In this document: positions 4,126 to 57,719 of the stretch, piece by piece
How positions within the stretch are numbered: the stretch's first letter is position 1
Layout: the number at the start of each line of letters is the position of its first letter
Translations under genes and position numbers: made by a program
Assembly: GCF_000266905.1 (NCBI RefSeq)
Contig: NC_018023.1
Location: 79,624 to 143,623, forward strand
Reading direction: 5' to 3'
DNA length: 64,000 nt
Source: Mycolicibacterium chubuense NBB4
Lineage (GTDB): Bacteria > Actinomycetota > Actinomycetes > Mycobacteriales > Mycobacteriaceae
The notes under the pieces: model-generated
The model's input: the letters and a program-made list of their open reading frames with translations, nothing else
Databases searched by the model: none
Told to the model about the DNA's origin: nothing

Positions 4126-6665
4126 GCGAAAACCTCTGCCGGAGGGGTGCTGTCGACATCAGCGGCCAACTGCGGGGTGGGTGCGCCGAGGAACCGGCAG
4201 CGCGCGCGACGACCGCGTTCATCGACAATGAACCCCTCCCCCATGCGCGTGGGGTGAACCCTTCCGAAGGCGTCGTCGTCGCTGTCCTCGTCGTCGGCGG
4301 ATTCCGCCGGGCTGGTGTCCTCGTAGTAGGACTGCACTACCTCTGGGTAGAGAGCGGGGTCGACACCGGCCCACTCCAGGGTCTTGGTGGCCAGCTCCTC
4401 GTTGCGGATCGCGAACAGCCATTTCTGGGTAATGAACTTATCGCCCATCCGAGCGAAATCGCGGTAGTCCTGCGAGATCAGCCAGATGCCGGTGGCGTGC
4501 TTGCGCCCTTGGCGAGTGATGCGGTGAGCGGTACGTGCGCCGGCCGGATAGGCCATCAATTCGGCGGCCTCCTCGAAGATCATCGTGGAGAACTGCTCGC
4601 GGTGCAGAAATTGGTGACGCTGCACGGTGTCGATGATCAGTCCGTAGATCGCCATGCCCGCCCGGGCGCCCTTGGGCAGCTTGTCGTACAGGTGTGGGTT
4701 GAGGATGTCGTCGGCGTCGGGCAGTCCGAGACGGTTGGTCAGCCAGATGGTGGCCAGTGACTGCGTGGGTGAGTATGGCTGGAGCGTTTCATCGAAAATG
4801 GCCCGTGCCGCCGGCTGAGTGGCCCAGGCCTCCAGGCGGGCCAGCAGCGTGTCACTGTGTGCCTCTGGCTGGGCCCGCAGGTATCCGATCAGCGCCCGCG
4901 TCGAGCCGATGCCGTGGGCTTCGCGCATCGCCGGGCTCACCAGCAGCGTGAAACGGTTCTCCATGTCGCTGTCGGCGGGCACGCCGATCATCGGCAGAAT
5001 GTGATCAGCGGCGACTGCGCCGGCGTCCTCAAAGGGGAACATCCGCAACGGATCGAGGCTGAACCGGGAGTCTCCCAGATCAATCACCGTCGTGTGGGTG
5101 ACGTTGCGAAACGCCTGCCCCCACTCGCCGTGCGTACCGGGATCGAACACGTCGACTTTGCCGCCCCGCAGGACGACTTCAATCCCGGATAGCTTGGCGC
5201 GGTTCGACTTTCCTGCGCCAGGATCGCCGATGACGATCAGGCCGGTGTTTTTGTTACGGCGGGCGCATCCCTCGGGGTCGTGCAGGATCAGGCTGCGTCG
5301 CAGCGTGTTCTGATTTTCTGCCAGCGGGGTGCCGCGGGAGTCTCCGACCCGGGTGGAGATCAGCGGTGTGAACCGGCCCCATAAGTGGGATGAAGTGGGA
5401 TCTCTGAACTCGTCGAGGTGGGTGTGCTTCTCGGTACCAGGATTGAACGCGGCCCACAGCTTCGACTGTGCACCGCGCCAGCGGCTCACCGCGATTTCGG
5501 CCTGGTCGAGTTCATGGCGGACCTGTTTGACCGCATCCTCACACATCGCGATTGTGGGTGCGCCCACAGCGATCAGGGTCGCGACGTCGAGCTCCCGCTC
5601 GCTGGGGTTGCCCTTGATTTGTGCGTTGTACTCGCGCGTGTTGGCCAGTTTGGTGTCGAGTTCGTCGTCCTCTTCAATCATGCGGCCTCGCTGCCACATT
5701 TGGTCCTTGATGTTCTTGGCGGCTCGCGCGTTGAGCGCCTCGGCGCGTTCGGGACTGCGGACCGTGACGTGCTGCATCCAGTCGATGCTGGCCTCGGTGT
5801 CGACGTTATCCAGGGCGTAGAGGTAGGCGGCCTTAGTGAACCGAAGCCCGGTGTCGGGAAAGTGAGTTACGGGCAGCAGCGCTTGGTAGCTGCACGGTCC
5901 CTGAGGATTATCGGCGTCATACAGGCGCACGATCGGGCGCATGGTTGGCCACCGCGTCGAGCGGACGGCGTTGGCCCCCTCGTCGACAGCCGGACGGATG
6001 AAGTCAGCTGCGGTGAGCCGGGCTGGGCCTGCTCCGGCCGGAGGCATCGAGTCGCGCAGCGTTCCGCGAAAGACGTTGTGCCGGTGCTGCCAGAGGATCT
6101 GTAGCGGGCTAGCGGGCCGGACGCTGAATTGCTGGGGAAGTGAGGCAACTATCTCGGCGGCGAGGCGGGCGTAGGCGGCCACCGAGTTGTCGGAGTCGAC
6201 GTCGCGGCCGGCGACCCAGTCTTTAGCCTTGGTGGCCGCGCCGGCTGCGGTGCGACCGGCGCGGCCACTGTCGACGGGGAACGTCAGCCAGCCTCGGCGC
6301 CGCTCCTCGAGGAAGACCGTGCCGTCTGCTGGTGCGGCTGCGGGGTTGAACGTTGGCTCCCACAGGCGGCAGTGCTCGACCCAGTTCAGGCGGTGGCTGT
6401 GATTGCCAACGATGTTGCGCATCAGCCGGTTTGGGTCGGTCGTGTCGATCAGGCCGGACAGGCTCCAGCCTGAGGGCAGGGCGCGGGCCAGGTTGCGGTA
6501 GAAGCGGCTTCCCCGTTCATGGGTGCGTAGTGGCCGCAGGACCAGGGGCAGACCGTCGATGAGGTAGTCGGCGTACACCCCACCGCGCGTGAAGCGAAGG
6601 TTGCCGATCACCGCTAGCGGCGGGTCGAAGGCGTGATCAACGCGCGGATCAGCGTTGCGCGCCAT
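4122..6665 (-). CDS. virB4: VirB4-like conjugation ATPase
   Basis: Probable energising ATPase of the type IV secretion channel, 847 residues. A Walker A motif GDPGAGKS lies at about 480-487 (Lys486), and a Walker B-like MIFEEAAE follows about 250 residues later, as in VirB4/TcpF proteins. I chose the ATG at 6665 because a good ribosome-binding site (AAGGAAT) precedes it; an upstream in-frame ATG at 6701 would add 12 residues. The gene overlaps the small PrgI-like membrane gene upstream by 17 bases and the TrbL-like gene downstream by 4. PrgI, VirB4, TrbL in a row is the core order of Gram-positive type IV systems. Confidence 0.85.
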   Translation of the reverse strand: MARNADPRVDHAFDPPLAVIGNLRFTRGGVYADYLIDGLPLVLRPLRTHERGSRFYRNLARALPSGWSLSGLIDTTDPNRLMRNIVGNHSHRLNWVEHCRLWEPTFNPAAAPADGTVFLEERRRGWLTFPVDSGRAGRTAAGAATKAKDWVAGRDVDSDNSVAAYARLAAEIVASLPQQFSVRPASPLQILWQHRHNVFRGTLRDSMPPAGAGPARLTAADFIRPAVDEGANAVRSTRWPTMRPIVRLYDADNPQGPCSYQALLPVTHFPDTGLRFTKAAYLYALDNVDTEASIDWMQHVTVRSPERAEALNARAAKNIKDQMWQRGRMIEEDDELDTKLANTREYNAQIKGNPSERELDVATLIAVGAPTIAMCEDAVKQVRHELDQAEIAVSRWRGAQSKLWAAFNPGTEKHTHLDEFRDPTSSHLWGRFTPLISTRVGDSRGTPLAENQNTLRRSLILHDPEGCARRNKNTGLIVIGDPGAGKSNRAKLSGIEVVLRGGKVDVFDPGTHGEWGQAFRNVTHTTVIDLGDSRFSLDPLRMFPFEDAGAVAADHILPMIGVPADSDMENRFTLLVSPAMREAHGIGSTRALIGYLRAQPEAHSDTLLARLEAWATQPAARAIFDETLQPYSPTQSLATIWLTNRLGLPDADDILNPHLYDKLPKGARAGMAIYGLIIDTVQRHQFLHREQFSTMIFEEAAELMAYPAGARTAHRITRQGRKHATGIWLISQDYRDFARMGDKFITQKWLFAIRNEELATKTLEWAGVDPALYPEVVQSYYEDTSPAESADDEDSDDDAFGRVHPTRMGEGFIVDERGRRARCRFLGAPTPQLAADVDSTPPAEVFA

Positions 6666-7026
6666 GGCTATTCCTTGCTGGTGGGCGCGCTGCGCACGCA
6701 TGGGTGGGCAGAATCGAGGACACCGCGAAGCTGGCGCGGGCGAGCAGTGATGGCCGACGCTTGGGCAGCGCCATCCGCAAGATGACGGTCACGACGAGCG
6801 CCGCGGCCGCCGCGGCGGCGAGGACTGTGAAGCCACCACCTTCGTGGGTGCGAAACCACCACAGCGCGGGCCCCATGATCAGGCCGATGGCGATCAGTTC
6901 GGCACTGCGATACGGACCACCAGGCAGACGATTGCCCGCTGATGACTCCCCCGCGTAAATGGGAACGTCGCGGATGCCGGTGAATACCTTCGCGGGTTCA
7001 CCGGTTGACACCTCGTTGTTGGACAC
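6649..7026 (-). CDS. PrgI/VirB3-like small membrane protein
   Basis: 125 residues starting at GTG 7026. A soluble N-terminus of about 40 residues is followed by two closely spaced membrane segments (about 44-60 and 66-88) and a basic C-terminal tail. In Gram-positive type IV systems a small two-helix protein of the PrgI/VirB3 kind is encoded immediately before the VirB4 ATPase, which is exactly this position; the 3' end overlaps virB4. Function is inferred from size, topology and location. Confidence 0.6.
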   Translation of the reverse strand: MSNNEVSTGEPAKVFTGIRDVPIYAGESSAGNRLPGGPYRSAELIAIGLIMGPALWWFRTHEGGGFTVLAAAAAAALVVTVILRMALPKRRPSLLARASFAVSSILPTHACAARPPARNSHGAQR

Positions 7027-7135
7027 AATGGCCTCGCTCGGTCAGTGGCGTTCGGTCAGGAAGTCGATAGCTTGTGCACCGCAAAGCTTTTGGCGCGGCA
7101 GGTCTGGGCAGGGTGGACCGTCCCGTCGGACATGG

Positions 7136-16981: not shown

Positions 16982-18789
16982 TGCCCGCCCTCACTACTGT
17001 TGAAGCCCGACGCCAGCCGGGCGGTGATTTCTAGATAGCGGCGACGGGTCTGGGGGCGCAGCTCGTTGATGTCAATCACCCCGGCCGAGGCGATGTGCGC
17101 ATCGAAGGGCACCACGAAGACACGCTGCGGACTGACCCAGCGGGAAAACTTTTCCACCAGCGAGTCCACCAGCTTGCGGTGGGCACTGCCCTTCTGGCCT
17201 CGCACGTCATTGATGACGACCGCTGTGCGCTGCAGCAACCGGTGATAGCCGGCCTCATACGCCCAGTCCATCAGCTCGGCAGCGCCCTTTGCGCCGTCCG
17301 GTGCCGTCGAAGCCACCATGATCAGTGCATCGGCGCGGCTCATCAGACCCGGTATCACCGGGTGATCAACGTCGGTACCGGAGTCGCTGATCAGCACGCT
17401 GTAGAAGCGTTCCAACACGGTGTGGGTATCTGCGTAGATCTTGGCCGTCAGAGGCTGACGATCGGCTTGGTACCGATTGCCCAACACATCAAGGCCAGCC
17501 GCCTCGTTCATGCCAACATGAGAGCGAATATCGCTGTAGCCGTGAAGATTTCGGTCTGAGAGTACGTCCTTGTAGGAGTTTGTTGCTTTCGGGTCGATTC
17601 GGTCGGCAAGGTTGGAAGCGCGATCGGGGTTGGCGTCGATCGCGATGACTTTATCTTTGCGCAGCGCAGCGAACGTCGACCCGATCGCCGCTGTCGTCGT
17701 CGTCTTGCCGACACCCCCCTTGCCGCCCAACACCACGATCGAGTAGGTGCCGCGCAAATGGCCGGCCACCGTCGCGTTGAGGTTACGCATCAGCTGTTCA
17801 TCCGGCGATTCACCGGTGTTGATGAGTTTGACGCTGCCGACGTAGAGCCACTTGCGCCATCCGCGTGACGAAGGAATCTTGCGAGGGGCGACGAGCTCTG
17901 AGGCCGAGATCTGCTCACTACGAAGCTCGGACCCGCCAAAGCCCGCACCCTGGGACCAGTCCCACTCTGGCGGCCGCGGCCCGTTCGGGCCGACACCTTG
18001 CTCTCCTGTCGATGCCCCGGCCTCGCGCGCCGGCCAGCCCGGCGGGGGCACGTTCGTGCGCTGTTCTGGCCCGGACTGCGGTGCGCCCAGGCGCGGCGGC
18101 CACCCACCAGAAGGCGGCGATGAATTTGGGCTCAGCGCGGTGCGCAGGGCGTCCCGAGAGAGGAACTGAGTGCGCTCCTCGGGTGCAACCGGGCGAGGGC
18201 CGAGGCCGGGGGCGGCAGCGTCCTGCTGAGCCGGTCCCTGGCCACGAGGGGCGCGCTGCCCCGCGGGCGGCTGCTGCCACGCCGCCGGAGGCGGCGCTGG
18301 GGCATGGCGTTGCGCATCAGCAGGCCCCTCACTGGTAAAAGATGCAGGCGAGGGTGGCAGCTGGGCCGTCACCTCGTCGGTGGGCGGCGGGAAGCCCTGC
18401 AGTGGGCTGTTCGCGGGGTCCTGGAATGGCCCCTCCAGTTTTTGCGGTTCGACCTGCGGAGCCGTTGGCGTCGGGCTGGATTGTGGTGACCCGGCATCGC
18501 TGGGCGGCGTGGTCGCCGTCCACGGCGGCACGCTGTGGCCTGTCGTGTGCGAGGTTGGGCCCCAGCCGCCAGCGCCTTCACTGGCGGGCGGGTCGAGGGG
18601 GTGTTTGCCGCTGGCCGGATCATCCTCGTCTGGGCCTGCAGCAAATCGCTGCGGCGGGAGAGGTGCCGCTGGCGCGCCGGAATCGCCTGGGCCGTCAGTG
18701 TTTGGCCCACCCGCTGGTGGGTCGTCACCTTCGTCGCGCCCTGCGTTACTCAGCGCATCGAAGAACTGTTGATCTCTGGACTCAGTCAT
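16978..18789 (-). CDS. espI: EspI-like ESX-associated ParA/MinD-type ATPase
   Basis: 603 residues. The first ~320 are Pro/Gly/Ala-rich and disordered; the C-terminal part is a MinD/ParA-type ATPase with the deviant Walker A KGGVGKTT (about 365-372), a switch-like ISDSGTD motif and a VVINDV strand. This fusion and its position between espG and eccD match EspI, which in ESX-1 modulates secretion in response to energy state. It should not be confused with the plasmid-partition ParA at 43526. Confidence 0.88.
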   Translation of the reverse strand: MTESRDQQFFDALSNAGRDEGDDPPAGGPNTDGPGDSGAPAAPLPPQRFAAGPDEDDPASGKHPLDPPASEGAGGWGPTSHTTGHSVPPWTATTPPSDAGSPQSSPTPTAPQVEPQKLEGPFQDPANSPLQGFPPPTDEVTAQLPPSPASFTSEGPADAQRHAPAPPPAAWQQPPAGQRAPRGQGPAQQDAAAPGLGPRPVAPEERTQFLSRDALRTALSPNSSPPSGGWPPRLGAPQSGPEQRTNVPPPGWPAREAGASTGEQGVGPNGPRPPEWDWSQGAGFGGSELRSEQISASELVAPRKIPSSRGWRKWLYVGSVKLINTGESPDEQLMRNLNATVAGHLRGTYSIVVLGGKGGVGKTTTTAAIGSTFAALRKDKVIAIDANPDRASNLADRIDPKATNSYKDVLSDRNLHGYSDIRSHVGMNEAAGLDVLGNRYQADRQPLTAKIYADTHTVLERFYSVLISDSGTDVDHPVIPGLMSRADALIMVASTAPDGAKGAAELMDWAYEAGYHRLLQRTAVVINDVRGQKGSAHRKLVDSLVEKFSRWVSPQRVFVVPFDAHIASAGVIDINELRPQTRRRYLEITARLASGFNSSEGGQ

Positions 18790-18912
18790 CTAGCCCCGCC
18801 CTTCTGCCGAATCTTCACCGGGGAGCTCGTGCAGGCTCCTCGAATCGGTGAATATCACCGTCGCAGAAAGACTACCAACCTCATATTTCAGGCGTCCACG
18901 ACGTTAAGCACA
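18790..18912. other. Gap between espG and espI with a small stem-loop
   Basis: 123 bases between two co-directional ESX genes that otherwise overlap or abut. It contains CGGTGA-ATA-TCACCG (around 18846-18860), a perfect 6-bp stem. It could attenuate read-through or mark an mRNA processing site, giving higher dosage of the substrate genes upstream than of the core genes downstream. No promoter is obvious. Confidence 0.35.
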
Positions 18913-19869
18913 TTAGCGTGACTGAAATGCTTGAATTCGTTGGTGGCGTTCCCAACCGGTACCGCTAGGTAGGTCCTGCAGGACATCGCTGACCGCCCGA
19001 CTCACGCGGGTGGTGGTGCCGGGGAACAGCATCGTCCAACGTTGCTGGTCGTCGGTGGTGTTGGAGGAGATCACCACCCGGCCCATCAGCGAGTCCACGA
19101 CCATCGCACCGGACGCGGCAAACTCGGGCCCGTCCACTGAATACTGTGTTGCGCCGATGGCCGCCCGAACAGCTCCGGTATCGGAGACGGCCACGATGAC
19201 GCGGGCCTGGCGTGCGGTGAGCCCCAGTTTGAGCAGCTCTCCGATCACGTCGTAGCCCTGAGGGTCGCGCTGCCAACTGTTGAGCACCGCTTCCAGACGT
19301 TCCGCCTGCATGCTGATGCCCTCGAAGTCGGCGGGAACTTCGTCTCCGAGCAGGTCATTGACCGCTTGAAAGACTGTCGTATCGCCTGCTAGTGGGCTGA
19401 GTGTCACTTCGTCGAGTGGATCGTCACCGATTCGCCACACACGCGCTGCGACAACCCATTTGCCGTCTCGGCGGCACAGAACCGCCGTGCGTTCGGCTGA
19501 TTGGTGCGCGCGCCATGCGCGTAGCGCTGCGGCGGCGCCACGCGGGTCTCTCAGGGGATCCGCCGGCGGCTTGAAGATTTCGGGAGGCCCGCAGAGACGC
19601 TCGGAGCGCTCGCCGGGGCGCACGACCCGGATCGACACCTCAATATCGCAGCGGCCCACGGTCAGCAGCCAGTCCAGGACGTCGGAGTCGAGTGTGCGCC
19701 CCTGGCACACTCCGGCTTCCTCGAGGACCTGCAAACCCGGATGGGAAGCCAGCATCGCTTCGGTGTCACCGACCGGCCGCACCCGCAGCGCGGCGGGAAG
19801 TCGGGTGATGCCGGAGAGCGCAGCTATCAGCCACATTCCTTCCGACGTGGTTGACAGCTGCGCTCCCAT
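18913..19869 (-). CDS. espG: EspG-family ESX chaperone
   Basis: 318 residues. The pattern of the EspG fold is visible: an N-terminal strand region with LAALxGITRLP-type packing, the long acidic middle, and C-terminal helices ending with VSRAVSDVLQDLPSG. EspG proteins bind the tip of PE-PPE heterodimers and deliver them to their cognate ESX system. The gene is directly downstream of the PE, PPE and Esx genes, the usual place. Confidence 0.88.
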   Translation of the reverse strand: MGAQLSTTSEGMWLIAALSGITRLPAALRVRPVGDTEAMLASHPGLQVLEEAGVCQGRTLDSDVLDWLLTVGRCDIEVSIRVVRPGERSERLCGPPEIFKPPADPLRDPRGAAAALRAWRAHQSAERTAVLCRRDGKWVVAARVWRIGDDPLDEVTLSPLAGDTTVFQAVNDLLGDEVPADFEGISMQAERLEAVLNSWQRDPQGYDVIGELLKLGLTARQARVIVAVSDTGAVRAAIGATQYSVDGPEFAASGAMVVDSLMGRVVISSNTTDDQQRWTMLFPGTTTRVSRAVSDVLQDLPSGTGWERHQRIQAFQSR

Positions 19870-20602: not shown

Positions 20603-21976
20603 TCAACCTCCCCCGCCTGTGTAGATCACACCATCGGCGGTCAGGATGGGGATTGCGTCGGCGTCGTCGAGAACCACCGACAGGGAGGTGTCGTCCTGGC
20701 CGCGGGCCGAGCCCTGATCGCGCTGACCAGCCTGGGCGGCCCCCATCGGCATCATGCCGGGCATTCCCGATCCCCCGGGCGCACCTGTACCGGTGCCCGT
20801 ACCGGCGCGGGCTGCCGCAGCCGGCTTGTTGCCCTGACCCGCTGCGCTGGAGCCATCGACGGCAGCCGGTCCCCACCACGTCGAAGGCATGCCGATCGGG
20901 CCACTGCCGCCCACGCCCAGGCCGGCAGGCTTGGTCAGGGCGGCCGTCACGGGGCCACCGCCGGAACCAAAGCTGCCGCTGACGCCGTTCATCGACGCCG
21001 CCAGGCCGGCGCCGGGTGCGTTAGCCGACAAGCCCCCGAAGGGCCCGCCCCCCATGCCGCCCATCGAACCCATCATCCCGCCGAGCTGCCCACCGATCTG
21101 CTGGGGCATCTGCGCAAGCTGGGACAGCGGCTGGGTCATTCCCTGCAGCGCCTGGGGCGCGGCGCTGGCCACCCCCATCATCTGCTGGCTAGCGCCCATC
21201 AGATCAGTGTTTCCGGCCTGCGCTGGCTGGGGACTGCCCGTCGCGGTCTCACCAGATTGGGCGCCCGACTGCCCACTGGCCGCGCTAGTGGCCGCCGACA
21301 ACGCTGCCGGCGCGGCGGAGGACACCGCTTGGCCAGCGGCCTGCAATGGCTCACCGAGCCCCTGCAGACCGGCCTGGACCCCGCTCTGTACGCCTTGGGC
21401 GGCCATGCTGGCCGCGCCCGCTGCCAAGCCTGCCGCATCCCCACCGGTCACCATCGGTGGGCGCAGGGGCACACTAAGCCCTGACGCGATCCCTGCTGCC
21501 GCCGTCGCATAGCCGGTCATGGCGGTGGCATTCTGCGACCAGAACTCGCCGTACTCGGCATCAGTTTCGGCGATGGGAATGGTGTTGAAACCCATGAAGT
21601 TGGTGGACTGCAGCACCGCTTCGCGCACCCGGTTGGCCACGCAGACGGGGTATGGAATCGTCGCTGCTACGGCGGTGGAGTGCGCGGCGGCCGCCTCGCT
21701 GATCAACACGCCCGCCTTTTCCGCGTGTGCTGCCGCCTCCAGCTGCCACTCCGACTTCGGCACGGCCGCGGCCATCATGGAGGTCCCGCCCTGACCCCAC
21801 CAACTGCCTGCGGCTGTCGTCGCGGCGGTGGTCATCATCTGCGCGCCCTGCTCCATATGGGTGATTCCGGCGGTCTGGTACGCGGCCAGCACCGACGCCA
21901 TGGCCGCCGCACCAGGGCCCGTCGTGAGCCGGATGGCGTTCGTCTCAGGGGTAATGCCCCAATACTGGACAGGCAT
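20603..21976 (-). CDS. PPE-family protein
   Basis: 457 residues. The N-terminal ~180 residues are a PPE domain: YWGITPETNAIRL corresponds to the Pro-Pro-Glu entry (here T-P-E), SWWGQGG is the WxG-like turn, and AEYGEFWSQNATAMTGYATAA is the conserved late helix. A Gly/Ala/Pro/Gln-rich tail follows. The start lies 4 bases after the PE stop, so PE and PPE are translated together and should form the usual heterodimer recognised by EspG. Confidence 0.9.
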   Translation of the reverse strand: MPVQYWGITPETNAIRLTTGPGAAAMASVLAAYQTAGITHMEQGAQMMTTAATTAAGSWWGQGGTSMMAAAVPKSEWQLEAAAHAEKAGVLISEAAAAHSTAVAATIPYPVCVANRVREAVLQSTNFMGFNTIPIAETDAEYGEFWSQNATAMTGYATAAAGIASGLSVPLRPPMVTGGDAAGLAAGAASMAAQGVQSGVQAGLQGLGEPLQAAGQAVSSAAPAALSAATSAASGQSGAQSGETATGSPQPAQAGNTDLMGASQQMMGVASAAPQALQGMTQPLSQLAQMPQQIGGQLGGMMGSMGGMGGGPFGGLSANAPGAGLAASMNGVSGSFGSGGGPVTAALTKPAGLGVGGSGPIGMPSTWWGPAAVDGSSAAGQGNKPAAAARAGTGTGTGAPGGSGMPGMMPMGAAQAGQRDQGSARGQDDTSLSVVLDDADAIPILTADGVIYTGGGG

Positions 21977-22450: not shown

Positions 22451-22867
22451 CTAATTCGCGCGGGAGCGCGCCGCGAGCTGTGCTGCGGATTCCGCAACAT
22501 CACAGATGACCTGCAGTCGCTTGCTCAGGACGGTGGCGGCGACCAATCCCGCCCGGGCTTCTTGAGCGATCTGCATGAGCTGCTCCACCAGCACTTCTGT
22601 GGTCGCGCTGAGCGGGTAGTCGGCATCGTCTCGCAAAGTGGCCTCCGCCCCCGCGAGCACGAGTTCGAAGCTGCCAGGGGTCCATCCCAAGGCAGCTTCG
22701 ATACGCGCCCGGGTGACGTCGCGCGCGGGAATCTTGCCGCGGTTGATCAAATCGGTGATCGTGGAGCGGCCCACCCGGGCCAGCTTGGCCAGGTCGATCT
22801 TCGACAGACCTAAGTCCAGCCTGGCCCCATCGACGGCTGCACCGAGTCGATTTCCCAGCTCACTCAA
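22451..22867 (-). CDS. XRE-family regulator within the ESX locus
   Basis: 138 residues. The N-terminal helix-turn-helix (LSKIDLAKLARVGRSTITDL, about 21-40) is followed by the ALGWTPGSFELVLAG motif, shared with the regulator at 10136-10510, and a long helical C-terminus that probably dimerises. Its ATG overlaps the 3' end of eccC by 8 bases, so it is made in proportion to EccC. It sits directly upstream of the inverted repeat and the PE gene. Probably a feedback regulator of ESX substrate expression; inferred. Confidence 0.78.
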   Translation of the reverse strand: MSELGNRLGAAVDGARLDLGLSKIDLAKLARVGRSTITDLINRGKIPARDVTRARIEAALGWTPGSFELVLAGAEATLRDDADYPLSATTEVLVEQLMQIAQEARAGLVAATVLSKRLQVICDVAESAAQLAARSRAN

Positions 22868-25800
22868 CTGGCAACACCTTCGCGATCTGGGCGGGAGCTG
22901 ACAACCGATCGGTCACATAGATACCGCGTCCCACTGGCTGTCGGGCTGCTTTCACGCCCCTGATCAGCTCGCCTTCCATGCGTTCGCCGTCCATGACGAC
23001 AAGAGGCGCGGTTTGGGCGATCAGCCGCCCCGCGAGCGGAGACGACATCGCCGGCCCCCACGGAAACCGTCTGCCCACGATCAGGTGCAGGCCGACCTCC
23101 CGGGAACGGTCGATGTACTTGGTCAACCCCTCGACCGCCGGGCCCTTACCGTCGGCACGGAACATGTTCGCGCCGGCACTCCACCCGGCCACGATCTGCT
23201 CGTCGTCGACGACGACAAAGATCTCCGGTCCCGACCACGACCGCTTGGCCTGCGCCAGCTCCTCCTGCCCCGCGCGTCCGCGCGGCATCCGCGGAGCAAG
23301 GACGGTATCGATGTGTCGGGCCATCGCCCGCACGTCATCCTCGTAGTAGGTGTAGCCCTCCGACTCCACACCGTCTTCGCCGATGTAGCGACCGAGGTGG
23401 GGGCCCTGCACGACCTTCACTAGGGAGTTGCCCGGATCGATGACATAAATCTGGGCCTCCTCGGGGCGGTAGCAGCGCATAATCGCCCGGGCGACGGCGG
23501 CCACAGAGTTCGACACCCCACCCTCGGGGTTACCGATAAACATCAGGTGCGGATTGCGTGTGAAGTCGGCTTCTGCCGCCACTAAACCGACCTCGGAAAT
23601 GCCGAACGGTACGACGCCCGGGCGCGAGTCACGGCGGGCGGCGAACACCTCATCAAGGCGCACCGTGCTGGGCAGCACCCTGACCTCGGCGACCTGGTCG
23701 ACGCCGGTGAGGTCGGTGATCATCGCGGCAACCTCGCGCGGTCCGCCGCTGCTGCCGTCCGCTGCGGTCAGGATTGGCAGCGCACTCTGAAAGTGGTAAC
23801 CCGCCATCGACGTGCCGCGACCGCTGATGGTTTCGGTGCGTGTCTCGGCGTTCTCGTCGTCGGGATCGGCAAGCAGCTCGCGCTCGCCGAAGGGAACCTT
23901 CTTGGCGACATCACGATTGTTCTTGGACGGATCGTCTTGACTATCCAGTGCCAGTTCGACATTGAGTGTGAAGGAACTCGACATCCACGACGGGAACCCC
24001 CCGGCGATCCAGCCGGCCGCGGCAAGGATGGTGCGCACGCCGAGGCTGTTGCCGCGCTGCATGACGACACTCAAGTCGGCCAGCATATCGTCTCCGAAGG
24101 TGGTGCGGAACTGCTGCCACCCGTCGATCACCAGGAACACTTCCCCGAAGGGGTCCTGCGGCACCGGGCCGGCCTCACCGCCGAACTTGCGAGCCCGGAA
24201 GCTCTCGATCGTCATCCCGAGGCGGCTAAAGGCATCCTCCCGCTCTTCGACGAGCAACTTCATTTCCGCGATCGTGCGCTGCACTCGCTCGCGGTCTCCG
24301 GCCCGCGCGAACGAACTCACGTGCGGCAGCGACTCGACCTCGTTAAGGCCTGTGCCGCCCATGGCCACCACCACGAACTGAACCCGTCGCGGGTGGTACA
24401 TCATGGCCGCACCCGTGATGATCGTGGCCAGCGCCGTGGTTTTGCCCGAGGTTTGCCTACCGATGACCGCACAGTTGCCCGACGAGAAGTCCAGTGCGTA
24501 CACCCGCTGGGCGTGCTGGAACGGCCGGTCCTCGATCCCAACCGGGAATTGCAGCCCAGCAGTATCGCCGTAATCCTGATACCAGGGCTTACGCCGCAGC
24601 CGACGCACCAGATCCTCGACGGGAACCGGGGCAAGCGGCGGCAACCACATCTGGTGAACCGGCACCCGGGTCTGCTCACGCAACGACGTGATCGATGCCT
24701 CCAGCTCCCGGATCGGCTGTCCGTCCGGCCCAAGCACCGTGTCAGCACTCTGTACCGGGGTGGCGGCCGGACGCGGCGCAGAGGCGATCTCGGCCATGGG
24801 GGCTGCAGTGAAAACCTCCGGTGCCATGTAACCGGCCTGCGTGCGCACCGCCTCGGCGATCACTCGCCGCGGCGGGTGATACACCTTGCGGGCGAACGCC
24901 GATTGGAAACGCACCAGCCGGTCGCGGCCCTGCACGCGCAACAAACCAGCGCCAGCAGGCTTTTCGGGTAGATGCTTAGCTTCGTCGGTACCGATGATGG
25001 CCATCGACTCCCCCGCATCCAGCGTGCGCAAGCCCACCCGGATCGGGATATTGGCCATGATTCCCGATTGCATCTCATGCCCCAGGCGCTGGGACCCCAA
25101 AATCATCTTCACGTTCAGGGCCCGGCCCTGGCGTCCGATCTCGTCGATGATCTTCTTCGACTCGGGAGCGTCGATGAACATCTGGGTGAACTCGTCGATG
25201 ACGATGATGAGTGCCGGTAGCGGCTCTAGCCGCTGCCCCAGGTGAATCCGGCGGTACTCGTACTCAGCGACCTCGCTGATACCAGCGCGGTCGAGCAAGG
25301 ACTTGCGGCGCTCGAGCTCCCCGTTGATCACATCACCCATACGCTCAATCCACAACGAGTCGTCTCTCAAGTTGCCCATGGCTGCAACGACATTGGGAAG
25401 ACCCGCCACCATGTTCGCCGTCGTTTTGCCCTTGAAGTCGAAGAACGCGAACACCAACGTCTCCGGAGAGTGAGTCAGCGCCGCGGACAAGATCAACGTC
25501 GTCAAAAAAGACGACTTGCCTGAACCGGTAGTGCCGGCAATCACCATATGGTGGCCCATGCCGCCCTCATGGGTCTCTTTAAAGTCGATGTAGACCGGGC
25601 CGCCTGTCGGGTCGACACCAATCGGGAACTGCAGCCAGTTGGCTCCCCATGAATTGTTCTCGAAGGGAGGCCCGGACAGCGTTGGGGCCCAAAGTTTTTC
25701 CACATCCAGATTTCCAGGATCCTCGATACCGAGGATCTTATAAAGATCGGCCTCGACGGAGCTGTCGTCGATAATGCTGCGCGAACGTTCGCCCTCCACA

Positions 25801-27023
25801 CGGTAGCGAGCCATCTTGCGCGCCAACACCCGCGCACTGGCGGCGTCCATCGAATCCGGGCGGCAGAACCACCGACCGCGATGGATCACCTCAGTAGTCG
25901 AGACCCAGTACGTATTCGACTCTTCGAAGCCGAGGCCGCGCCCCGGCTCAGATGACAGCGCCAGAAAAGTCACGCCAGCCACGCCGCCAGCACGGGTCAG
26001 CGTCTCCCAGTGGCGGTCATCGCCACGGCGCCGGCGGTCATCGACCACCAGCCAATGCGGCGTGGCCGCAGAGTTCGTGCGGAAAGCTTCACGATTATGC
26101 AGTTCGGTGCCCACCGCGGCGTCCATCTGTTCCCCGCTCGTCCATACCATCCGAGCAGCACCACCCCGATCCTGCAGCGTCGGATGAGCGCAGTGCGGCA
26201 ACCACTTGCACCATTCCCAGCGAGCCAGATCGTCGGTAACGATCATGATCTTGAAGTCTCGCGGCGAGTGCGCCACCGCGGCCTGGCAGATCATCGCGCG
26301 CGCCAAGTCATAGACCGGCTCCATGCCGTCACGACCGATCAGCGCCATTCCCGCAATGTTGCGCAGCAGCAACGGTTTTGGGGCACTGTGCAGCTTGCTC
26401 TGAGTCTGCAGGAACGCCGAGGAGGCGTCATAGGTGACCGGCTCGTAATCCTCGCGGCGACCAAGTTCGTTTGTTTCCAGCTCCTTGACGACCTTCGAAG
26501 TACCAAGCCCCATCCGGACTTGGGTGCAAAACACCTTCAACACTTGGTCATTCGGCGTTCTACACCACATCCGTGCCGAACCGACCAAGCCTGAAAGGAG
26601 CGCCGGATTGGGGTGCAAATACTCAAACTGTGCGTGCTGTGCACGCGCGGCATCTTGGACGTTGTCGCGCGTCTCATCCAGCGTCATCGAGTAGTCGCGC
26701 CGTGCCTGCTCGAGCTGAGGGCCTGACATCTGCTTGTCCCCGCCGGCACCCCGGTTGGAGAACATGTACGAGCCCATCGACACGATCATCATGATCGGGA
26801 AGAACAGGCTCATCATGCCCATCGTCCCGCCCCGCAAACCGGGTTGCGACAGCATCAGGGCCATCATCCCGAGGAAGGCCACGCCCATCACTACCGGCAA
26901 AATGATCGCGGCCTTGCTGCGCGGCAGCGGTCGCGGGGCCTCCAACGGTTCAGGTACCGAAAGCTTCCCGCCCATCGTCGGGGGAACCTTCACCGCACCC
27001 TGGCGAGGCTTCACTGTTGCCAT
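22860..27023 (-). CDS. eccC: ESX motor ATPase EccC
   Basis: 1387 residues, a single-chain EccC, from ATG 27023 five bases after eccB. Two membrane helices (about 38-60 and 65-88) and a DUF domain precede three FtsK/SpoIIIE-type ATPase domains. Domain 1 has Walker A GTTGSGKS (Lys503) and Walker B VIDEF (Asp610, Glu611). Domain 2 has GRQTSGKT (Lys861) and VIDGW. Domain 3 has GNPEGGVS at 1164-1171, with Val in place of the Walker Lys, so it is unlikely to bind ATP normally. EccC recognises substrates and powers secretion. The frame is open 270 bases further upstream into eccB but the start chosen fits the family. Confidence 0.95.
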   Translation of the reverse strand: MATVKPRQGAVKVPPTMGGKLSVPEPLEAPRPLPRSKAAIILPVVMGVAFLGMMALMLSQPGLRGGTMGMMSLFFPIMMIVSMGSYMFSNRGAGGDKQMSGPQLEQARRDYSMTLDETRDNVQDAARAQHAQFEYLHPNPALLSGLVGSARMWCRTPNDQVLKVFCTQVRMGLGTSKVVKELETNELGRREDYEPVTYDASSAFLQTQSKLHSAPKPLLLRNIAGMALIGRDGMEPVYDLARAMICQAAVAHSPRDFKIMIVTDDLARWEWCKWLPHCAHPTLQDRGGAARMVWTSGEQMDAAVGTELHNREAFRTNSAATPHWLVVDDRRRRGDDRHWETLTRAGGVAGVTFLALSSEPGRGLGFEESNTYWVSTTEVIHRGRWFCRPDSMDAASARVLARKMARYRVEGERSRSIIDDSSVEADLYKILGIEDPGNLDVEKLWAPTLSGPPFENNSWGANWLQFPIGVDPTGGPVYIDFKETHEGGMGHHMVIAGTTGSGKSSFLTTLILSAALTHSPETLVFAFFDFKGKTTANMVAGLPNVVAAMGNLRDDSLWIERMGDVINGELERRKSLLDRAGISEVAEYEYRRIHLGQRLEPLPALIIVIDEFTQMFIDAPESKKIIDEIGRQGRALNVKMILGSQRLGHEMQSGIMANIPIRVGLRTLDAGESMAIIGTDEAKHLPEKPAGAGLLRVQGRDRLVRFQSAFARKVYHPPRRVIAEAVRTQAGYMAPEVFTAAPMAEIASAPRPAATPVQSADTVLGPDGQPIRELEASITSLREQTRVPVHQMWLPPLAPVPVEDLVRRLRRKPWYQDYGDTAGLQFPVGIEDRPFQHAQRVYALDFSSGNCAVIGRQTSGKTTALATIITGAAMMYHPRRVQFVVVAMGGTGLNEVESLPHVSSFARAGDRERVQRTIAEMKLLVEEREDAFSRLGMTIESFRARKFGGEAGPVPQDPFGEVFLVIDGWQQFRTTFGDDMLADLSVVMQRGNSLGVRTILAAAGWIAGGFPSWMSSSFTLNVELALDSQDDPSKNNRDVAKKVPFGERELLADPDDENAETRTETISGRGTSMAGYHFQSALPILTAADGSSGGPREVAAMITDLTGVDQVAEVRVLPSTVRLDEVFAARRDSRPGVVPFGISEVGLVAAEADFTRNPHLMFIGNPEGGVSNSVAAVARAIMRCYRPEEAQIYVIDPGNSLVKVVQGPHLGRYIGEDGVESEGYTYYEDDVRAMARHIDTVLAPRMPRGRAGQEELAQAKRSWSGPEIFVVVDDEQIVAGWSAGANMFRADGKGPAVEGLTKYIDRSREVGLHLIVGRRFPWGPAMSSPLAGRLIAQTAPLVVMDGERMEGELIRGVKAARQPVGRGIYVTDRLSAPAQIAKVLPVE

Positions 27024-27028
27024 AGGGG

Positions 27029-28507
27029 TTACCGTCCTTGTCCGGTGATCGGGGCGGCGGGACCGGCGAGTGTGTCGTGCATCGTCATCGCTGCCTGCCG
27101 CGAAAGTTCGGGCCCTGCTGGCCACACACGTAGCAGCGGCCACGGCGCTAGCCGCGGCGCAGTGTTCTTGAGTCCCAACGCCTGCAGCGCGTCGTCGTCG
27201 AAGGGAACGCCGTAGCGTGCGCCCGATTCGCTGATCAGCCATAGGGTTTCGCGGCGTGTCGAGTCGGCATTGGCGCCGGTTGTCGAAACCCATGTTGCAG
27301 GGCGATCAGCCAACAACACCTGGTCGGCCTGCTTACCTTGATCCTGGCTGCCGACAACGAGCGGAACCAGGTGCGATTCCTGCTCGGCCCGGACCGGCAA
27401 CGCCCGCCCAACCAAAAATCGTTGACGCGCCTGCCGATCGGTTGCTCCCCGCTCCCACGCAACGCACAACACCGGCTCGGCACGCCAATCGACAACCGTC
27501 AACGGCGCATCGGGATAACCGGTCACATCAAGGACACTGCGCACCGCAACGTCACCCAAGACGTCGGGCGCGATACGCGGCGGCTGCGGAATACCAAACG
27601 AATCCCGCTGACGCAGCATCGCCGCCACCACCGAGGACACCGGCTGAACACCATCGGCAAGCACGACGTAGAACTGATCCTTGCCCGAGGCCACGTCCTG
27701 AGACACCACCACCGACCCATTCAGCACAGGCGCGGGCGTGCCCAGATTGACCGCGCTGGGCGCGCCGGAGCCCGGTACCGAAGGCACCAACAGCGGGCGG
27801 CCGGCGGGCAACGCGTCGACCATGGCCCGAGACAGCTCGACCGGTGAGCCCGCCGTCTGCAGCCCCAACGGCTCAACGACCGCCCTGTCGGTCAGGTCGA
27901 CCGGCATCCGCACACCGTTGGCGATCACATAGGCCTGCCCGTTGAAAGAGCCGACAATCGCGGTGTCGCCGGTGACCTCGCGGGCTCGATCCCCCAGCGT
28001 CAACTCACCGTTGATACCGGTGATGACCGGCCGCCCGCTCATCGTGTCTGACGCGGTGTCGCAAACCGCCCACCGCGACACCTCCGGGGTCAGCACCTGC
28101 GGCGGCTCGGTGGGAGCCCCCTCAATGCCCACCAGCGGTCCCCGAGGCCACTTGGCGAGGTCGTCAGGGCTGACGAACGTCGGCTCGGCGGGCTGGCCAG
28201 CAATCAACCACGCCGAGATCAAGTTAAACGCCGGATGCAGGCGGCCATCGACGGAGACGAACACTGTCCCGAGTTTGCGGTCGGCCACAATCTTGGAATC
28301 GTTGACCAACCCCGCCGGCCGAAGCCAGCCCACCACGAGAGCCCCAACCATCACCAGGACCGCGAGCAGAGCTGAGATCATCAGCACCAGGCGTTGAGTT
28401 CGCATCCGGTCGGTCTGCATCCGCACTGACCGGCGCTGAAATGCAAATCCCAGTCGTCGGCGAAGGAAGTAGTGGCCCGATACCTGTGTCTTGGAGGCCA
28501 AATTCAT
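27029..28507 (-). CDS. eccB: ESX component EccB
   Basis: 492 residues from ATG 28507 (GGAG five bases upstream; a GTG two codons earlier is possible). The N-terminus (NLASKTQVSGHYFLRRRLGFAF) is the EccB signature, followed by one membrane helix (about 40-63) and a large periplasmic domain of R-repeats. EccB dimers form the periplasmic face of the core complex. It starts the eccB-eccC pair. The 141 bases before the gene (28508-28648) show no clear feature but could hold a promoter. Confidence 0.94.
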   Translation of the reverse strand: MNLASKTQVSGHYFLRRRLGFAFQRRSVRMQTDRMRTQRLVLMISALLAVLVMVGALVVGWLRPAGLVNDSKIVADRKLGTVFVSVDGRLHPAFNLISAWLIAGQPAEPTFVSPDDLAKWPRGPLVGIEGAPTEPPQVLTPEVSRWAVCDTASDTMSGRPVITGINGELTLGDRAREVTGDTAIVGSFNGQAYVIANGVRMPVDLTDRAVVEPLGLQTAGSPVELSRAMVDALPAGRPLLVPSVPGSGAPSAVNLGTPAPVLNGSVVVSQDVASGKDQFYVVLADGVQPVSSVVAAMLRQRDSFGIPQPPRIAPDVLGDVAVRSVLDVTGYPDAPLTVVDWRAEPVLCVAWERGATDRQARQRFLVGRALPVRAEQESHLVPLVVGSQDQGKQADQVLLADRPATWVSTTGANADSTRRETLWLISESGARYGVPFDDDALQALGLKNTAPRLAPWPLLRVWPAGPELSRQAAMTMHDTLAGPAAPITGQGR

Positions 28508-28648
28508 CGGCACTCCAAAACCGTACCGTGCAAAACAATGCCCGAGCCACCACCGCAGCCAAATTGACTGCGAAGGAGTTTTGTCGACGTTGCTGAGTCG
28601 ACAACGGCACCTGGCCTACCGGGCAACCTCCAGCAGGGTTATACGGCA

Positions 28649-35232: not shown

Positions 35233-35547
35233 CTACGTATCGGACGGACTGATCGTGAGGCGGGCCTGGTTTTCAGCTTCGATCCGCTCGTAGTCGGCGG
35301 CCGAAGCCAACAGAGCGTCGCGCATCTCTTCGTGGCGACGCTGTTCGCTGGCCAGTGCCGCGTCACGCTTGCCGGCAACCTCGCTGATGGAGGCTTTGAC
35401 CTGGTGATACAGCGGGCCTAAGGTTTGCGCCTCGGTCGTCATGCGCTCGTTGTCGGCGCGGGCTGCTTTGATCTGGTCGATCGCTTGGGCATGGACTTCT
35501 GCGCGCCGACGCAGCTCAGAGGGCTCGACCTGGATTACCACACTCAC
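35233..35547 (-). CDS. EspC-like ESX substrate (DUF2580-type)
   Basis: 104 residues from GTG 35547. Two long helices with a short turn (TLGPLYHQV) and a C-terminal Y-E-R-I-E-A-E-N, a YxxxE export signal. Size and layout match EspC-type substrates, which are co-secreted with a PPE-like partner. The end of the protein (E-A-E-N-Q-A) is the same as in the EsxB-like protein at 20219-20521, suggesting that both dock on the same EccC site. Confidence 0.75.
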   Translation of the reverse strand: MSVVIQVEPSELRRRAEVHAQAIDQIKAARADNERMTTEAQTLGPLYHQVKASISEVAGKRDAALASEQRRHEEMRDALLASAADYERIEAENQARLTISPSDT

Positions 35548-52648: not shown

Positions 52649-53259
52649 GTGATGTGTGTTCTGGTGGTGGCTGTTGGTGCTGGTGGTGGGTGATACTGCC
52701 GGTCATGTCGTTGCAGGGTCTGGTTGATGCCACGGCGTCGGCGCTTGGTGGCGCTCGGGAGCTGTATGGCCAGGCTGTGCCCGCGTCGGGGTTGCCTTCG
52801 GCTAGTGGGTTGCAAGGACTCAAGACCGACTTGAGGGTGTCGGTGGACACAGTGCCGGCGAGCTGGCGGGGCGGTGGGGGAGAGGGCTACCGGTTAGCTG
52901 GCGGTAACGGGGTGGCGGCGCTGGACAACGTCGTCGGTGCCGATGGTCAGGTCGGGCCCCAGGTGGTGTCGGCCGCCAATGAGTCCCGCGAAGGCCGCTC
53001 GGGTATGAACGGCGTGTTGAGTGATACCCGGTCCGGGGTGAACGCGATCGCGCCCAGCACGGACACCCCGGCAGGCAAGACCGTGCTGGTCAATCACCTG
53101 GAAACCCAACTCGACCGCGCCAAAGCCCTCCTCACTCGATCTGAGCAACGAAACATTGCTTTAGCCAACATCATTCGGGCCGCCAGCGGTGGCTATGGTG
53201 GCCGTCCGACCGGCGGAGGCATGCCCATGGGCGGCGGCATGGGCACCCCCATCGGCGGC
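52649..53259 (+). repeat. 611-bp direct repeat, copy 1
   Basis: Matches 53858-54468 with only three substitutions, all silent and all near the 3' end (around 53195-53212). It contains the promoter and the first ~184 codons of the transglycosylase gene. Confidence 0.95.
52692..52704 (+). promoter_or_regulatory. Leaderless -10 box, copy 1
   Basis: GATACT (52692-52697) then 7 bases to the ATG at 52705. The spacing places the transcription start at the initiation codon. A -35 element is not clear in the GT-rich stretch upstream. The same sequence precedes the second gene. Confidence 0.5.
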
Positions 53260-53850
53260 GGGACGGGGGCAACGTCACCGCTGAGCTCGCTGTCGGCACT
53301 CAGCGGCTTGACCGGGCAATTCGCGGGGCTCTCAGGAGCATTGTCACGGCCCCGAGGGGGACCGGCCCGCGGTGCGGCGCCGGCCTCGTCGGCGGCCAGA
53401 ATCCCACTCGCAGATGTCAGCTTCACCGGCCGAGGCACCTTCCCAGCAGGTCCGGCCGCCATGTCCGAGGCCATCAACGCCGCCCTGGACGCCCGCGGCG
53501 TCACCGACCCGGTCGCCCGCAAGAACTGGCACGACGGTTACATGACCCTGACGGCCCGCGAAAGCGGCCACAACGCCAGCGTCGTCAACCTCTCCGACTC
53601 CAACGCCCACGGTGCACGAATGTCCGACGGTGCCCCGGCCAACAGCTCTCGTGGGCCCGCGCAGTGCATCCCCACCACCTTCGCCGCCTACCACCAGCCG
53701 GGGACCTCGACAAGCATCTACGAACCCGTCGCCAACGTCGCCGCCTCGATGAACTACGTCATGGACCGCTACGGCGTCAGCCCCGATGGGTCCAACCTCG
53801 CTGCCCACGTGCCCCAGGCGAACGTGCATTCCGGCGCACGCGGATACTAG
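52705..53850 (+). CDS. WXG-domain lytic transglycosylase
   Basis: 381 residues. The N-terminal domain (1-160) is a helical WXG100-like hairpin with the turn SWRGGGGEGY (Trp54, Gly56), followed by a Gly/Met/Pro-rich linker (160-245). The C-terminal domain (about 250-381) is a soluble-lytic-transglycosylase-like domain with ARESGHNASVVN (Glu286) and GPAQCIPTTFAAYH, as in phage tape-measure and conjugation lysozymes. It should cut glycan strands. No signal peptide, so the WXG-like part may target it to the ESX system. Nearly identical N-terminus to the next gene. Confidence 0.82.
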   Translation: MSLQGLVDATASALGGARELYGQAVPASGLPSASGLQGLKTDLRVSVDTVPASWRGGGGEGYRLAGGNGVAALDNVVGADGQVGPQVVSAANESREGRSGMNGVLSDTRSGVNAIAPSTDTPAGKTVLVNHLETQLDRAKALLTRSEQRNIALANIIRAASGGYGGRPTGGGMPMGGGMGTPIGGGTGATSPLSSLSALSGLTGQFAGLSGALSRPRGGPARGAAPASSAARIPLADVSFTGRGTFPAGPAAMSEAINAALDARGVTDPVARKNWHDGYMTLTARESGHNASVVNLSDSNAHGARMSDGAPANSSRGPAQCIPTTFAAYHQPGTSTSIYEPVANVAASMNYVMDRYGVSPDGSNLAAHVPQANVHSGARGY

Positions 53851-53857
53851 CCGCCAA

Positions 53858-54468
53858 GTGATGTGTGTTCTGGTGGTGGCTGTTGGTGCTGGTGGTGGGT
53901 GATACTGCCGGTCATGTCGTTGCAGGGTCTGGTTGATGCCACGGCGTCGGCGCTTGGTGGCGCTCGGGAGCTGTATGGCCAGGCTGTGCCCGCGTCGGGG
54001 TTGCCTTCGGCTAGTGGGTTGCAAGGACTCAAGACCGACTTGAGGGTGTCGGTGGACACAGTGCCGGCGAGCTGGCGGGGCGGTGGGGGAGAGGGCTACC
54101 GGTTAGCTGGCGGTAACGGGGTGGCGGCGCTGGACAACGTCGTCGGTGCCGATGGTCAGGTCGGGCCCCAGGTGGTGTCGGCCGCCAATGAGTCCCGCGA
54201 AGGCCGCTCGGGTATGAACGGCGTGTTGAGTGATACCCGGTCCGGGGTGAACGCGATCGCGCCCAGCACGGACACCCCGGCAGGCAAGACCGTGCTGGTC
54301 AATCACCTGGAAACCCAACTCGACCGCGCCAAAGCCCTCCTCACTCGATCTGAGCAACGAAACATTGCTTTAGCCAACATCATTCGGGCCGCCAGCGGCG
54401 GCTACGGTGGCCGCCCGACCGGCGGAGGCATGCCCATGGGCGGCGGCATGGGCACCCCCATCGGCGGC
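53858..54468 (+). repeat. 611-bp direct repeat, copy 2
   Basis: Second copy of 52649-53259, beginning 7 bases after the transglycosylase gene. The near-perfect identity means a recent duplication or ongoing gene conversion. It gives the second gene its promoter and N-terminal domain. Confidence 0.95.
53901..53913 (+). promoter_or_regulatory. Leaderless -10 box, copy 2
   Basis: GATACT (53901-53906), 7 bases before ATG 53914, copied with the repeat. Confidence 0.5.
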
Positions 54469-54966
54469 ATGGGCGGGGGAGGTGCCGGAGTAAGTGGTGC
54501 TCTCGGGGGCCTCCCCGGGATGTTGTCGGGCCTCAATGGCTCGAGTCGAGGCGATGCGTCACTGCTAGCCAGGAGAACCCACGCCGGCGGGCTGGGCCTA
54601 CCGAGCGGGGCCACCGCTCGGGCGGTGGCCTATGCCAAATCCAAGCTCGGAGCGCCGTACGTGTGGGGGGCACAGGGACCCAATAGCTTTGACTGTTCGG
54701 GCCTGACGCAGGCCGCATACGCCGAGGCCGGAGTGCACATACCCCGAACCACCTACGAGCAGGTACGCGCCGGGCAAGCCGTCGACCGCGGTGACATCCA
54801 GGAAGGTGACTTGATCTTCTGCAACTGGTCGGCCCCCGGCACGCCTGAGCACGTCATGATGGCCGTGTCTCCGACGATGGCGATCGAGGCACCCACGCCC
54901 GGGCACTCGGTGAAAATCTCGCCAATACCCAACGGGCACATCGAGATCCGCCGGGTGGTGGGGTAA
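53914..54966 (+). CDS. WXG-domain NlpC/P60 endopeptidase
   Basis: 350 residues. Residues 1-184 are the same WXG-like domain and linker as in the preceding gene. The C-terminal ~120 residues are an NlpC/P60 cysteine peptidase: ARAVAYAKSKLGAPYVWGA entry, catalytic Cys261 in DCSGL, His313 in EHVMM. It should cut peptide stems of peptidoglycan, complementing the transglycosylase. No signal peptide visible. Confidence 0.88.
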   Translation: MSLQGLVDATASALGGARELYGQAVPASGLPSASGLQGLKTDLRVSVDTVPASWRGGGGEGYRLAGGNGVAALDNVVGADGQVGPQVVSAANESREGRSGMNGVLSDTRSGVNAIAPSTDTPAGKTVLVNHLETQLDRAKALLTRSEQRNIALANIIRAASGGYGGRPTGGGMPMGGGMGTPIGGMGGGGAGVSGALGGLPGMLSGLNGSSRGDASLLARRTHAGGLGLPSGATARAVAYAKSKLGAPYVWGAQGPNSFDCSGLTQAAYAEAGVHIPRTTYEQVRAGQAVDRGDIQEGDLIFCNWSAPGTPEHVMMAVSPTMAIEAPTPGHSVKISPIPNGHIEIRRVVG

Positions 54967-57568: not shown

Positions 57569-57719
57569 CGCCATCACGCGTGCGCCAGACACTCCGCACG
57601 CCGAGCATCCACATAACCGACCCGCACGCGCTGGCGCTGACGCATCCCTGCCGGGCGCAGCCAGCCGACCCGCGGCGGCCGGACTGCTCGTCGACGTCGA
57701 CGTCGGGCATCGGCCATGA
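57561..57719 (+). CDS. Small 52-aa protein
   Basis: Begins 8 bases inside the cupin gene and ends on the ATGA overlap with the next frame at 57716. Pro/Ala/His-rich, no recognisable fold. The chained overlaps on both sides are the only support. Confidence 0.35.
   Translation: MTSAITRAPDTPHAEHPHNRPARAGADASLPGAASRPAAAGLLVDVDVGHRP

Follow-up and report, generated by a model that had tools for sequence, protein, structure and literature searches.

The window analysed here is a stretch of 64,000 nucleotides (nt) from Mycolicibacterium chubuense NBB4, C2:79624-143623, at the end of a 143,623-bp contig (C2, NC_018023.1) that forms part of a 6.34-Mb, three-contig mycobacterial genome. It carries in tandem two genes for putative peptidoglycan hydrolases, one with an SLT-like and one with an NlpC/P60 end, whose 381- and 350-amino-acid products are identical over residues 1-185. 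At the DNA level 52649-53259 recurs as 53858-54468 (offset 1209, 611 bp), with mismatches only at 53190, 53196 and 53205, all of them silent. Each copy consists of 56 bp 5' of the ATG, a leader domain and the beginning of a Gly/Met-rich linker. A sequence-only reading had described tandem hydrolases with a common N-terminus, a shared upstream region and three silent differences, and the coordinates and translations confirm this description. The repeat is not a chance feature of the window, because an upstream-plus-leader tract common to neighbouring hydrolase genes was found in 14 further loci. As judged by sequence comparison, the real feature is broader than this pair: ESX-linked wall hydrolases carry a conserved cassette of targeting type, which evolves in concert.

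Simple hydropathy found no signal-peptide-like or transmembrane stretch in either hydrolase. The best 12-mer in the first 40 residues scores 1.1, against 2.1 for MycP of the same window, in line with the earlier claim that signal peptides are absent. The GATACT close to the ATG may be a -10 element serving a leaderless start, an idea based on the conservation of a GATACT-like box at this place: ATACTGC occurs in 29 of 36 upstream rows of the compared loci, rows which are not independent (that of M. rufum uses a start codon inside the leader). A sigma-70 two-hexamer promoter scan of the upstream part found nothing.

The NlpC/P60 assignment of the second gene held. Its product matches PF00877 at 76.9 bits against a cut-off of 23 and contains FDCSG (Cys261), EHV (His313) and IEAP (Glu325), which we take to be the catalytic cysteine, histidine and third polar residue; Cys261 and His313 are invariant in an alignment of 30 sequences. 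The lytic transglycosylase label of the first gene fared less well, as its product has no catalytic Pfam match at E <= 1 and stays under the PF01464 cut-off. However, SLT was matched by 9 of the 30 aligned members of its set at E <= 0.1 (best 2.5e-5), and the relatives P0095, L014, L017 and L019 exceed the PF01464 cut-off. The protein contains RGPAQ and RESG, and the RESG glutamate (Glu286), presumably the SLT catalytic residue, is at least 90% conserved in the 30 sequences. Its structure model is poor (pLDDT 57.4), and a fold search with it gave no match below E 1.8. Seen through its relatives and the conserved glutamate, the first protein probably ends in an SLT-like domain.

The leader, helical and about 165 residues long, is joined to SLT, NlpC/P60 or PF26571 ends on related mycobacterial ESX plasmids, and the modular leader-plus-hydrolase system proposed from the window pair is thus borne out with three enzyme types. 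A protein search with leader residues 1-170 gave 159 matches at E <= 0.001. Among the 120 matches listed, the precomputed labels were NlpC/P60, PF26571, DUF4226, PF01575 and PF13701 (the last two once each) or none, and several of the unlabelled proteins are named transglycosylase. With tblastn the leader was found on 13 of 72,556 plasmid records, all mycobacterial, and a leader profile had matches at E <= 0.001 in 12 of 401 genomes of the family, strong ones in three; the match in one genome, G099, is not a hydrolase (L018, below). PF26571 proteins have the pattern HPxGLAxD ... NHxxHxH and match the solved chains 9flh/9fln (E 9e-14), from which we infer a LAS-type metallopeptidase; a literature search found no paper on 9flh. 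Throughout the loci the same two or three wall enzymes recur, with SLT first. In M. crocinum, M. rufum and pRAW the NlpC gene with its leader lies directly upstream of eccB, and in the first two the SLT partner lies farther upstream. The pRAW leader aligns to that of M. crocinum, which the window-class leader hidden Markov model (HMM) detects; this model does not directly detect the pRAW leader.

Further ends and arrangements were seen in the survey. A fourth type of C-terminus (PYGYEEWLPGSGIYMWHGDLTPEPY or near) follows the leader at L058:10297-11271 (pRAW) and L030:1048-2049 (an M. lentiflavum plasmid), and a phage-tail-lysozyme-like end replaces SLT at L057:4565-5674 (PF18013 at 26.2 bits, under the 28.2 cut-off) and L012:597-1721 (13.4 bits). 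On C1, the second contig of the window's genome to bear an ESX system, an IetS/IetA defence pair (L006:11733-15286, C1:243732-247285; the subtilase IetS at 1016 bits and the AAA ATPase IetA at 480 bits by PADLOC) lies between SLT and metallopeptidase leader genes. A TnsA-like protein and a hypothetical in M. farcinogenes (L052:21097-23397), and transposases and hypotheticals in M. bolletii (L053:21093-26970), are inserted between the two hydrolase genes, and the gap between the repeats is possibly an insertion hotspot. On two mycobacterial chromosomes (L064:3848-6570; L065:about 4398-7390) an NlpC/P60 gene is followed by two DUF4226-type genes, encoding about 120 and 465-494 amino acids, an arrangement that we take to resemble Rv0024-Rv0026. 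The N-terminus of the chromosomal NlpC protein weakly matches a broad leader HMM (1e-5), whose training set included the pRAW, M. crocinum and G167 leaders; the remaining rows are the real tests of that model.

Leader copies are much more alike within a locus than between loci. For 13 pairs from one locus whose enzyme ends differ, leader DNA identity ranges from 83 to 100% (median 99.8%), and a forced global alignment puts the remaining protein parts at 28-52% identity; between loci the median nucleotide identity of the leaders is 76.7% where the enzyme type is the same (94 pairs) and 69.9% where it differs (218 pairs). Of 23 genes, 21 have their closest leader within their own locus, and the two that do not form the M. 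vinylchloridicum pair. A tree of 33 leaders places the 15 multi-copy loci with 14 changes, which is the minimum; shuffles averaged 25.9, and none of 200 went as low. The leaders cluster by plasmid and not by enzyme, with M. vinylchloridicum again excepted: two ungrouped rows outside the tree count sit with one of its leaders, so that this locus is not clean (support 67/90). Nine of the tree groups are identical rows and carry no support value. The identity comparison omits L043, one L044 gene and both genes of L045, L053 and L057, for which no anchor or start was found, the incomplete genes (M. lentiflavum NlpC and MAG44), minus-strand hits, and L011, L023, L028, L030, L031, L042, L046, L048, L049 and L055; the tree additionally took the L053, L057, M. 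crocinum and M. scrofulaceum rows and excludes MAG44.

The sequence-only reading had offered recent duplication or gene conversion as the source of the identity. One recent duplication fails as the full account, as the enzymes stand in the same order on diverged plasmids while the leaders group by plasmid, and recurrent gene conversion fits better because of this grouping. The cassettes of M. farcinogenes and M. houstonense differ at 12 of 525 positions, with 12 of 12 changes present in both paralogues, and the catalytic parts differ at 1.3-1.4%. The changes shared by the paralogues show that homogenisation went on after the plasmids separated, and they also speak against a single duplication.

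The identity of the leaders could also be without functional meaning, with adjacent repeats simply converting one another and a leader that is no more than a passive helical or oligomerisation domain; as far as conversion goes, this reading does not compete with the others. The tracts do end where homology ends: in 17 of 18 pairs they start 47-75 nt before the start codon and end 516-662 nt after it, while the pRAW pair has no shared tract (its tract row is an overlap artefact). Some leader pairs are also less alike, with 83% identity in M. vinylchloridicum and only about 60% in pRAW. However, near-identity between enzymes is kept where 3-6 kb separate the genes (M. farcinogenes, M. houstonense and the C1 contig) and in three strongly diverged leader classes (the window class, M. 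crocinum/rufum and G167), and we consider a passive leader rather unlikely.

The leader was originally described as a WXG-type targeting domain with a W-R-G hairpin turn. The turn is there: an AlphaFold2 model (pLDDT 72.3, pTM 0.48) has helices at 3-20, 33-48, 57-118 and 122-163, with W54-R-G56 between the second and third. W54 and G56 are invariant in 40 aligned sequences, and W-x-G with predicted helices on either side, as in the WXG100 turn, is found in 28 of 28 window-class leaders. Profile searches against WXG100 and DUF families, which had been suggested with that description, gave a divided result. DUF4226 (PF10774) was matched in the second half by 36 of the 40 aligned leader proteins at E <= 0.1 (best 6.2e-6), but no leader passed the WXG100 (PF06013) cut-off, and only 3 of 40 matched it at E <= 0.1 (best 0.0058). 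The window proteins are themselves under the DUF4226 cut-off (14.5-16.4 bits against 23.5), the relative P0077 is above it (25 bits), and L017, L019 and L024 carry DUF4226 at 40-42.5 bits together with SLT or NlpC in one fused protein, with L014 just below the cut-off. DUF4226-like therefore seems the better-supported label for the second half of the leader; to our knowledge DUF4226 has no known function.

The W-x-G half appears to resemble EspA/EspE, an ESX substrate family. In G099 the profile of the leader matches L018 (G099:C21, about 388841-390349) at positions 33-104, which is this half (E 2e-5 for one genome, 401 searched), and L018 belongs to EspA/EspE (PF18879, 68.6 bits against a cut-off of 27); it is possibly a link between ESX-1-type substrates and the hydrolase leader. 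EspA/EspE was matched by 4 of the 40 aligned proteins at E <= 0.1, of which only the match of P0077 was located (residues 49-101), and the window proteins have no match at E <= 1, which leaves them under the cut-off. Profiles A2 and A4 searched against the PDB found EsxH (0.022) and EsxR (0.044) at the turn, and Foldseek placed PPE chains at ranks 3, 5, 6, 10 and 19 (E 0.13-0.40), with BAR domains equal or better. A search of the PDB with P0121 gave nothing useful. Three other routes to WXG homology were rejected: profile A5 found no Esx chain in the PDB, hhalign to the PPE domain of the window gave a probability of 0.1, and hhalign to 25 plasmid EsxA-like sequences placed W54 on the template tryptophan, yet 15 of 200 column shuffles and the reversed profile did equally well.

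Several observations weigh against an ESX-type leader. The W-x-G turn is absent from the M. crocinum, pRAW and G167 leaders, homologues on other ESX plasmids that are shared in the same way. The fold search with the leader gave no match at E <= 0.001, and its leading matches were BAR domains. The Y/F/W-xxx-D/E motif occurs in 0 of 28 leaders, and the broad leader HMM missed the two short chromosomal DUF4226-type proteins. What stands of the WXG description is thus the invariant W-x-G of the window clade and the EspA/EspE match; a WXG100 score above the cut-off, a profile alignment better than shuffles and a turn in the sister leaders do not.

The tie to ESX plasmids is supported. In 9 of 12 genomes the leader match has an eccB no more than 30 kb away on its contig, where uniform placement would give 0.88, and 0 of 200,000 random placements reached 9 genomes. 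The misses include G227 (136 kb apart) and G099 (eccB on another contig), and in G279 the leader adjoins eccB only if the contig is circular. With 60 of 80 plasmid EccB records listed, the 11 top rows (52-88% identity) are all leader plasmids, 11 of the 13 known; the leader plasmid AP017625 is not among the listed rows, and three partial M. ulcerans rows (57% identity) are on plasmids without a leader match. A counter-example is plasmid 1 of M. bolletii 50594 (NC_021278), which has the pair and over its whole length no annotated ecc gene.

VirB4 is also linked to the leader: 10 of 12 genomes have both on one contig, six of them less than 30 kb apart and three at 4-6 kb, and linkage alone therefore cannot pick ESX over a type IV secretion system (T4SS). 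The hydrolases might serve the type IV (VirB4) conjugation channel, as do VirB1 and the SLT-NlpC hydrolases that Gram-positive conjugative elements carry, with the leader docking to a T4SS part and the ESX linkage reflecting only a shared plasmid. The seven top VirB4 plasmid rows are leader plasmids, and hydrolases of Tn916-like conjugative transposons are among the NlpC profile relatives. However, eccB lies within 30 kb in more genomes than VirB4 does (nine against six), it is eccB that the NlpC gene abuts on the pRAW, M. crocinum and M. rufum plasmids, and four leader plasmids with eccB (NC_011355, CP083742, AP026368 and CP155056) are absent from the best 60 of 259 VirB4 rows, which reach 27% identity. 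We regard a purely type IV role as unlikely.

The gene content of the window is that of an ESX plasmid with T4SS parts (Table 1), and it also includes a gene for a DUF4226 protein. We infer that its EspC-family protein is a candidate partner that would bring the secretion motif YERIE. The eccB gene is about 24 kb from the hydrolase pair, compared with about 16 kb in M. gallinarum, M. madagascariense and M. farcinogenes, and helix-turn-helix (HTH) and whiB genes stand next to the pair. In seven of the eight plasmid regions taken from the leader matches, parA-type genes flank the hydrolase genes on one side and an HTH gene on the other, mostly with whiB after it; the exception is M. lentiflavum, where the leader match is located elsewhere. 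An IS21-type pair (IstB and transposase) lies upstream of the window genes at 46849-49262. Downstream, 57580-63990 encodes a 2136-residue methyltransferase-helicase protein, and on several sister plasmids the hydrolase locus is likewise followed by large helicase genes of a similar kind, beside a DUF4226 gene.

Table 1. Features of the hydrolase pair and of its plasmid surroundings, in window coordinates
Feature	Position	Strand	Remark
Upstream part, repeat copy 1	52649..52704	+	contains GATACT, which ends 7 nt before the ATG
SLT-like (transglycosylase-type) hydrolase with shared leader	52705..53850	+	381 amino acids
Leader copy 1, residues 1-165	52705..53199	+	helices from AlphaFold2
Upstream part, repeat copy 2	53858..53913	+	begins 8 nt past the last base of the first gene
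NlpC/P60 hydrolase with same leader	53914..54966	+	350 amino acids; Cys261, His313, Glu325
Leader copy 2, residues 1-165	53914..54408	+	
EccA-type AAA ATPase	268..2049	-	
VirB4-like ATPase	4122..6701	-	T4SS side of the plasmid
EccE, MycP-type subtilase, EccD, CbiA/ParA-like ATPase, EspG	12265..19869	-	
PPE protein	20603..21976	-	
EccC-type FtsK/SpoIIIE ATPase	22860..27293	-	
EccB of the plasmid ESX system	27029..28513	-	
EspC-family protein	35233..35547	-	PF10824, 41.9 bits; YERIE at residue 86

A common leader with exchangeable enzymatic ends, a lysozyme-like one among them, resembles the architecture of polymorphic toxins, and the proteins could be LXG-like antibacterial effectors aimed at competitors, with the leader as the delivery part. 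We find this very improbable, as the same few wall enzymes recur, SLT first and with little variety, and the annotated neighbours are ParA/B, HTH and WhiB genes, although no search was aimed at immunity genes.

The comparisons establish, at the level of sequence, a cassette, three enzyme partners, homogenisation within the plasmid and linkage to eccB. On balance it seems somewhat probable that both genes belong to a set of wall hydrolases devoted to the secretion apparatus that a mycobacterial ESX plasmid encodes; that L018 is an EspA/EspE protein adds a little support to this reading and to the bolder one below. The best reading is that hydrolases lacking signal peptides would be addressed by the leader they share to the plasmid's ESX system or to the T4SS that is its partner. 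The cassette comprises an upstream piece of about 50 bp, a start codon that probably has no 5' leader before it, a helical domain of 165 residues with an EspA/EspE-like W-x-G half and a DUF4226-like second half, and the Gly/Met-rich linker. Behind it stand wall-cutting domains: SLT for glycan, NlpC/P60 for the stem peptide and, in the case of sister plasmids, a LAS-like metallopeptidase for the stem or cross-link. The leader would replace a signal peptide as a docking or export tag for the ESX translocon. It may pair with an EspC-like protein, on the model of EspA, which pairs with EspC. The enzymes would then open the peptidoglycan at the site of ESX/T4SS assembly or DNA passage, which would agree with the joint wall opening and mating role first suggested, and conversion would maintain one tag per plasmid. 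More tentatively, the leader may be a plasmid-specific address label, of EspA/DUF4226 type, that is recognised by the plasmid's own ESX translocon and homogenised by conversion for joint delivery of enzymes that cut glycan, stem and cross-link to a single site. If so, a type VIIa system would export its own wall-opening toolkit, and different plasmid classes would carry different labels.

On the question of how type VII and mycobacterial conjugation machines cross peptidoglycan, EssH provides an answer in only one Firmicute system. A leader that several wall enzymes share and that evolves in concert would offer a direct experimental handle and a functional hypothesis for DUF4226, and it appears to be a clear example of a targeting-type domain under concerted evolution while attached to catalytic domains that are unrelated. 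Two NLP/P60 hydrolases have already been associated with plasmid type VIIa secretion clusters (PMC13059805, citing Ummels 2014). The link between NlpC/P60 and plasmid ESX systems is therefore known, and what seems to be new is the architecture and evolution of the shared leader; no report of it was found in a literature search mostly of titles and abstract openings, with passages of PMC4791881, PMC12857230 and PMC3482391.

Among the closest known arrangements is that of pRAW, where an NlpC/P60 gene adjoins eccB and the leader is related through that of M. crocinum; the window genes differ in their distance from eccB (about 24 kb) and their HTH and whiB neighbours, in leaders that are near-identical between enzymes and in having W-x-G. 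EssH of the Staphylococcus aureus type VIIb system likewise serves a type VII system as its dedicated wall hydrolase and needs an N-terminal domain besides the catalytic one, but it is a single CHAP enzyme with a Sec signal peptide (PMC13059805), whereas the set described here lacks signal peptides and covers two or three chemistries. DUF4226 proteins share the second half of the leader in most of the aligned set and include fusions to SLT and NlpC above the cut-off, while the window proteins fall below it. The EspA/EspE and WXG100 hairpins have in common with the leader a W-x-G between two predicted helices, the half over which L018 is matched, but the window leader is below both cut-offs, has four predicted helices and no YxxxD/E, and its W-x-G arm is missing in the sister classes. 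Tn916-type hydrolases, in which one polypeptide has both SLT and NlpC/P60 domains, bring the same pair of activities to a transfer element and are profile relatives of the NlpC end; the window, in contrast, uses separate proteins that share one leader.

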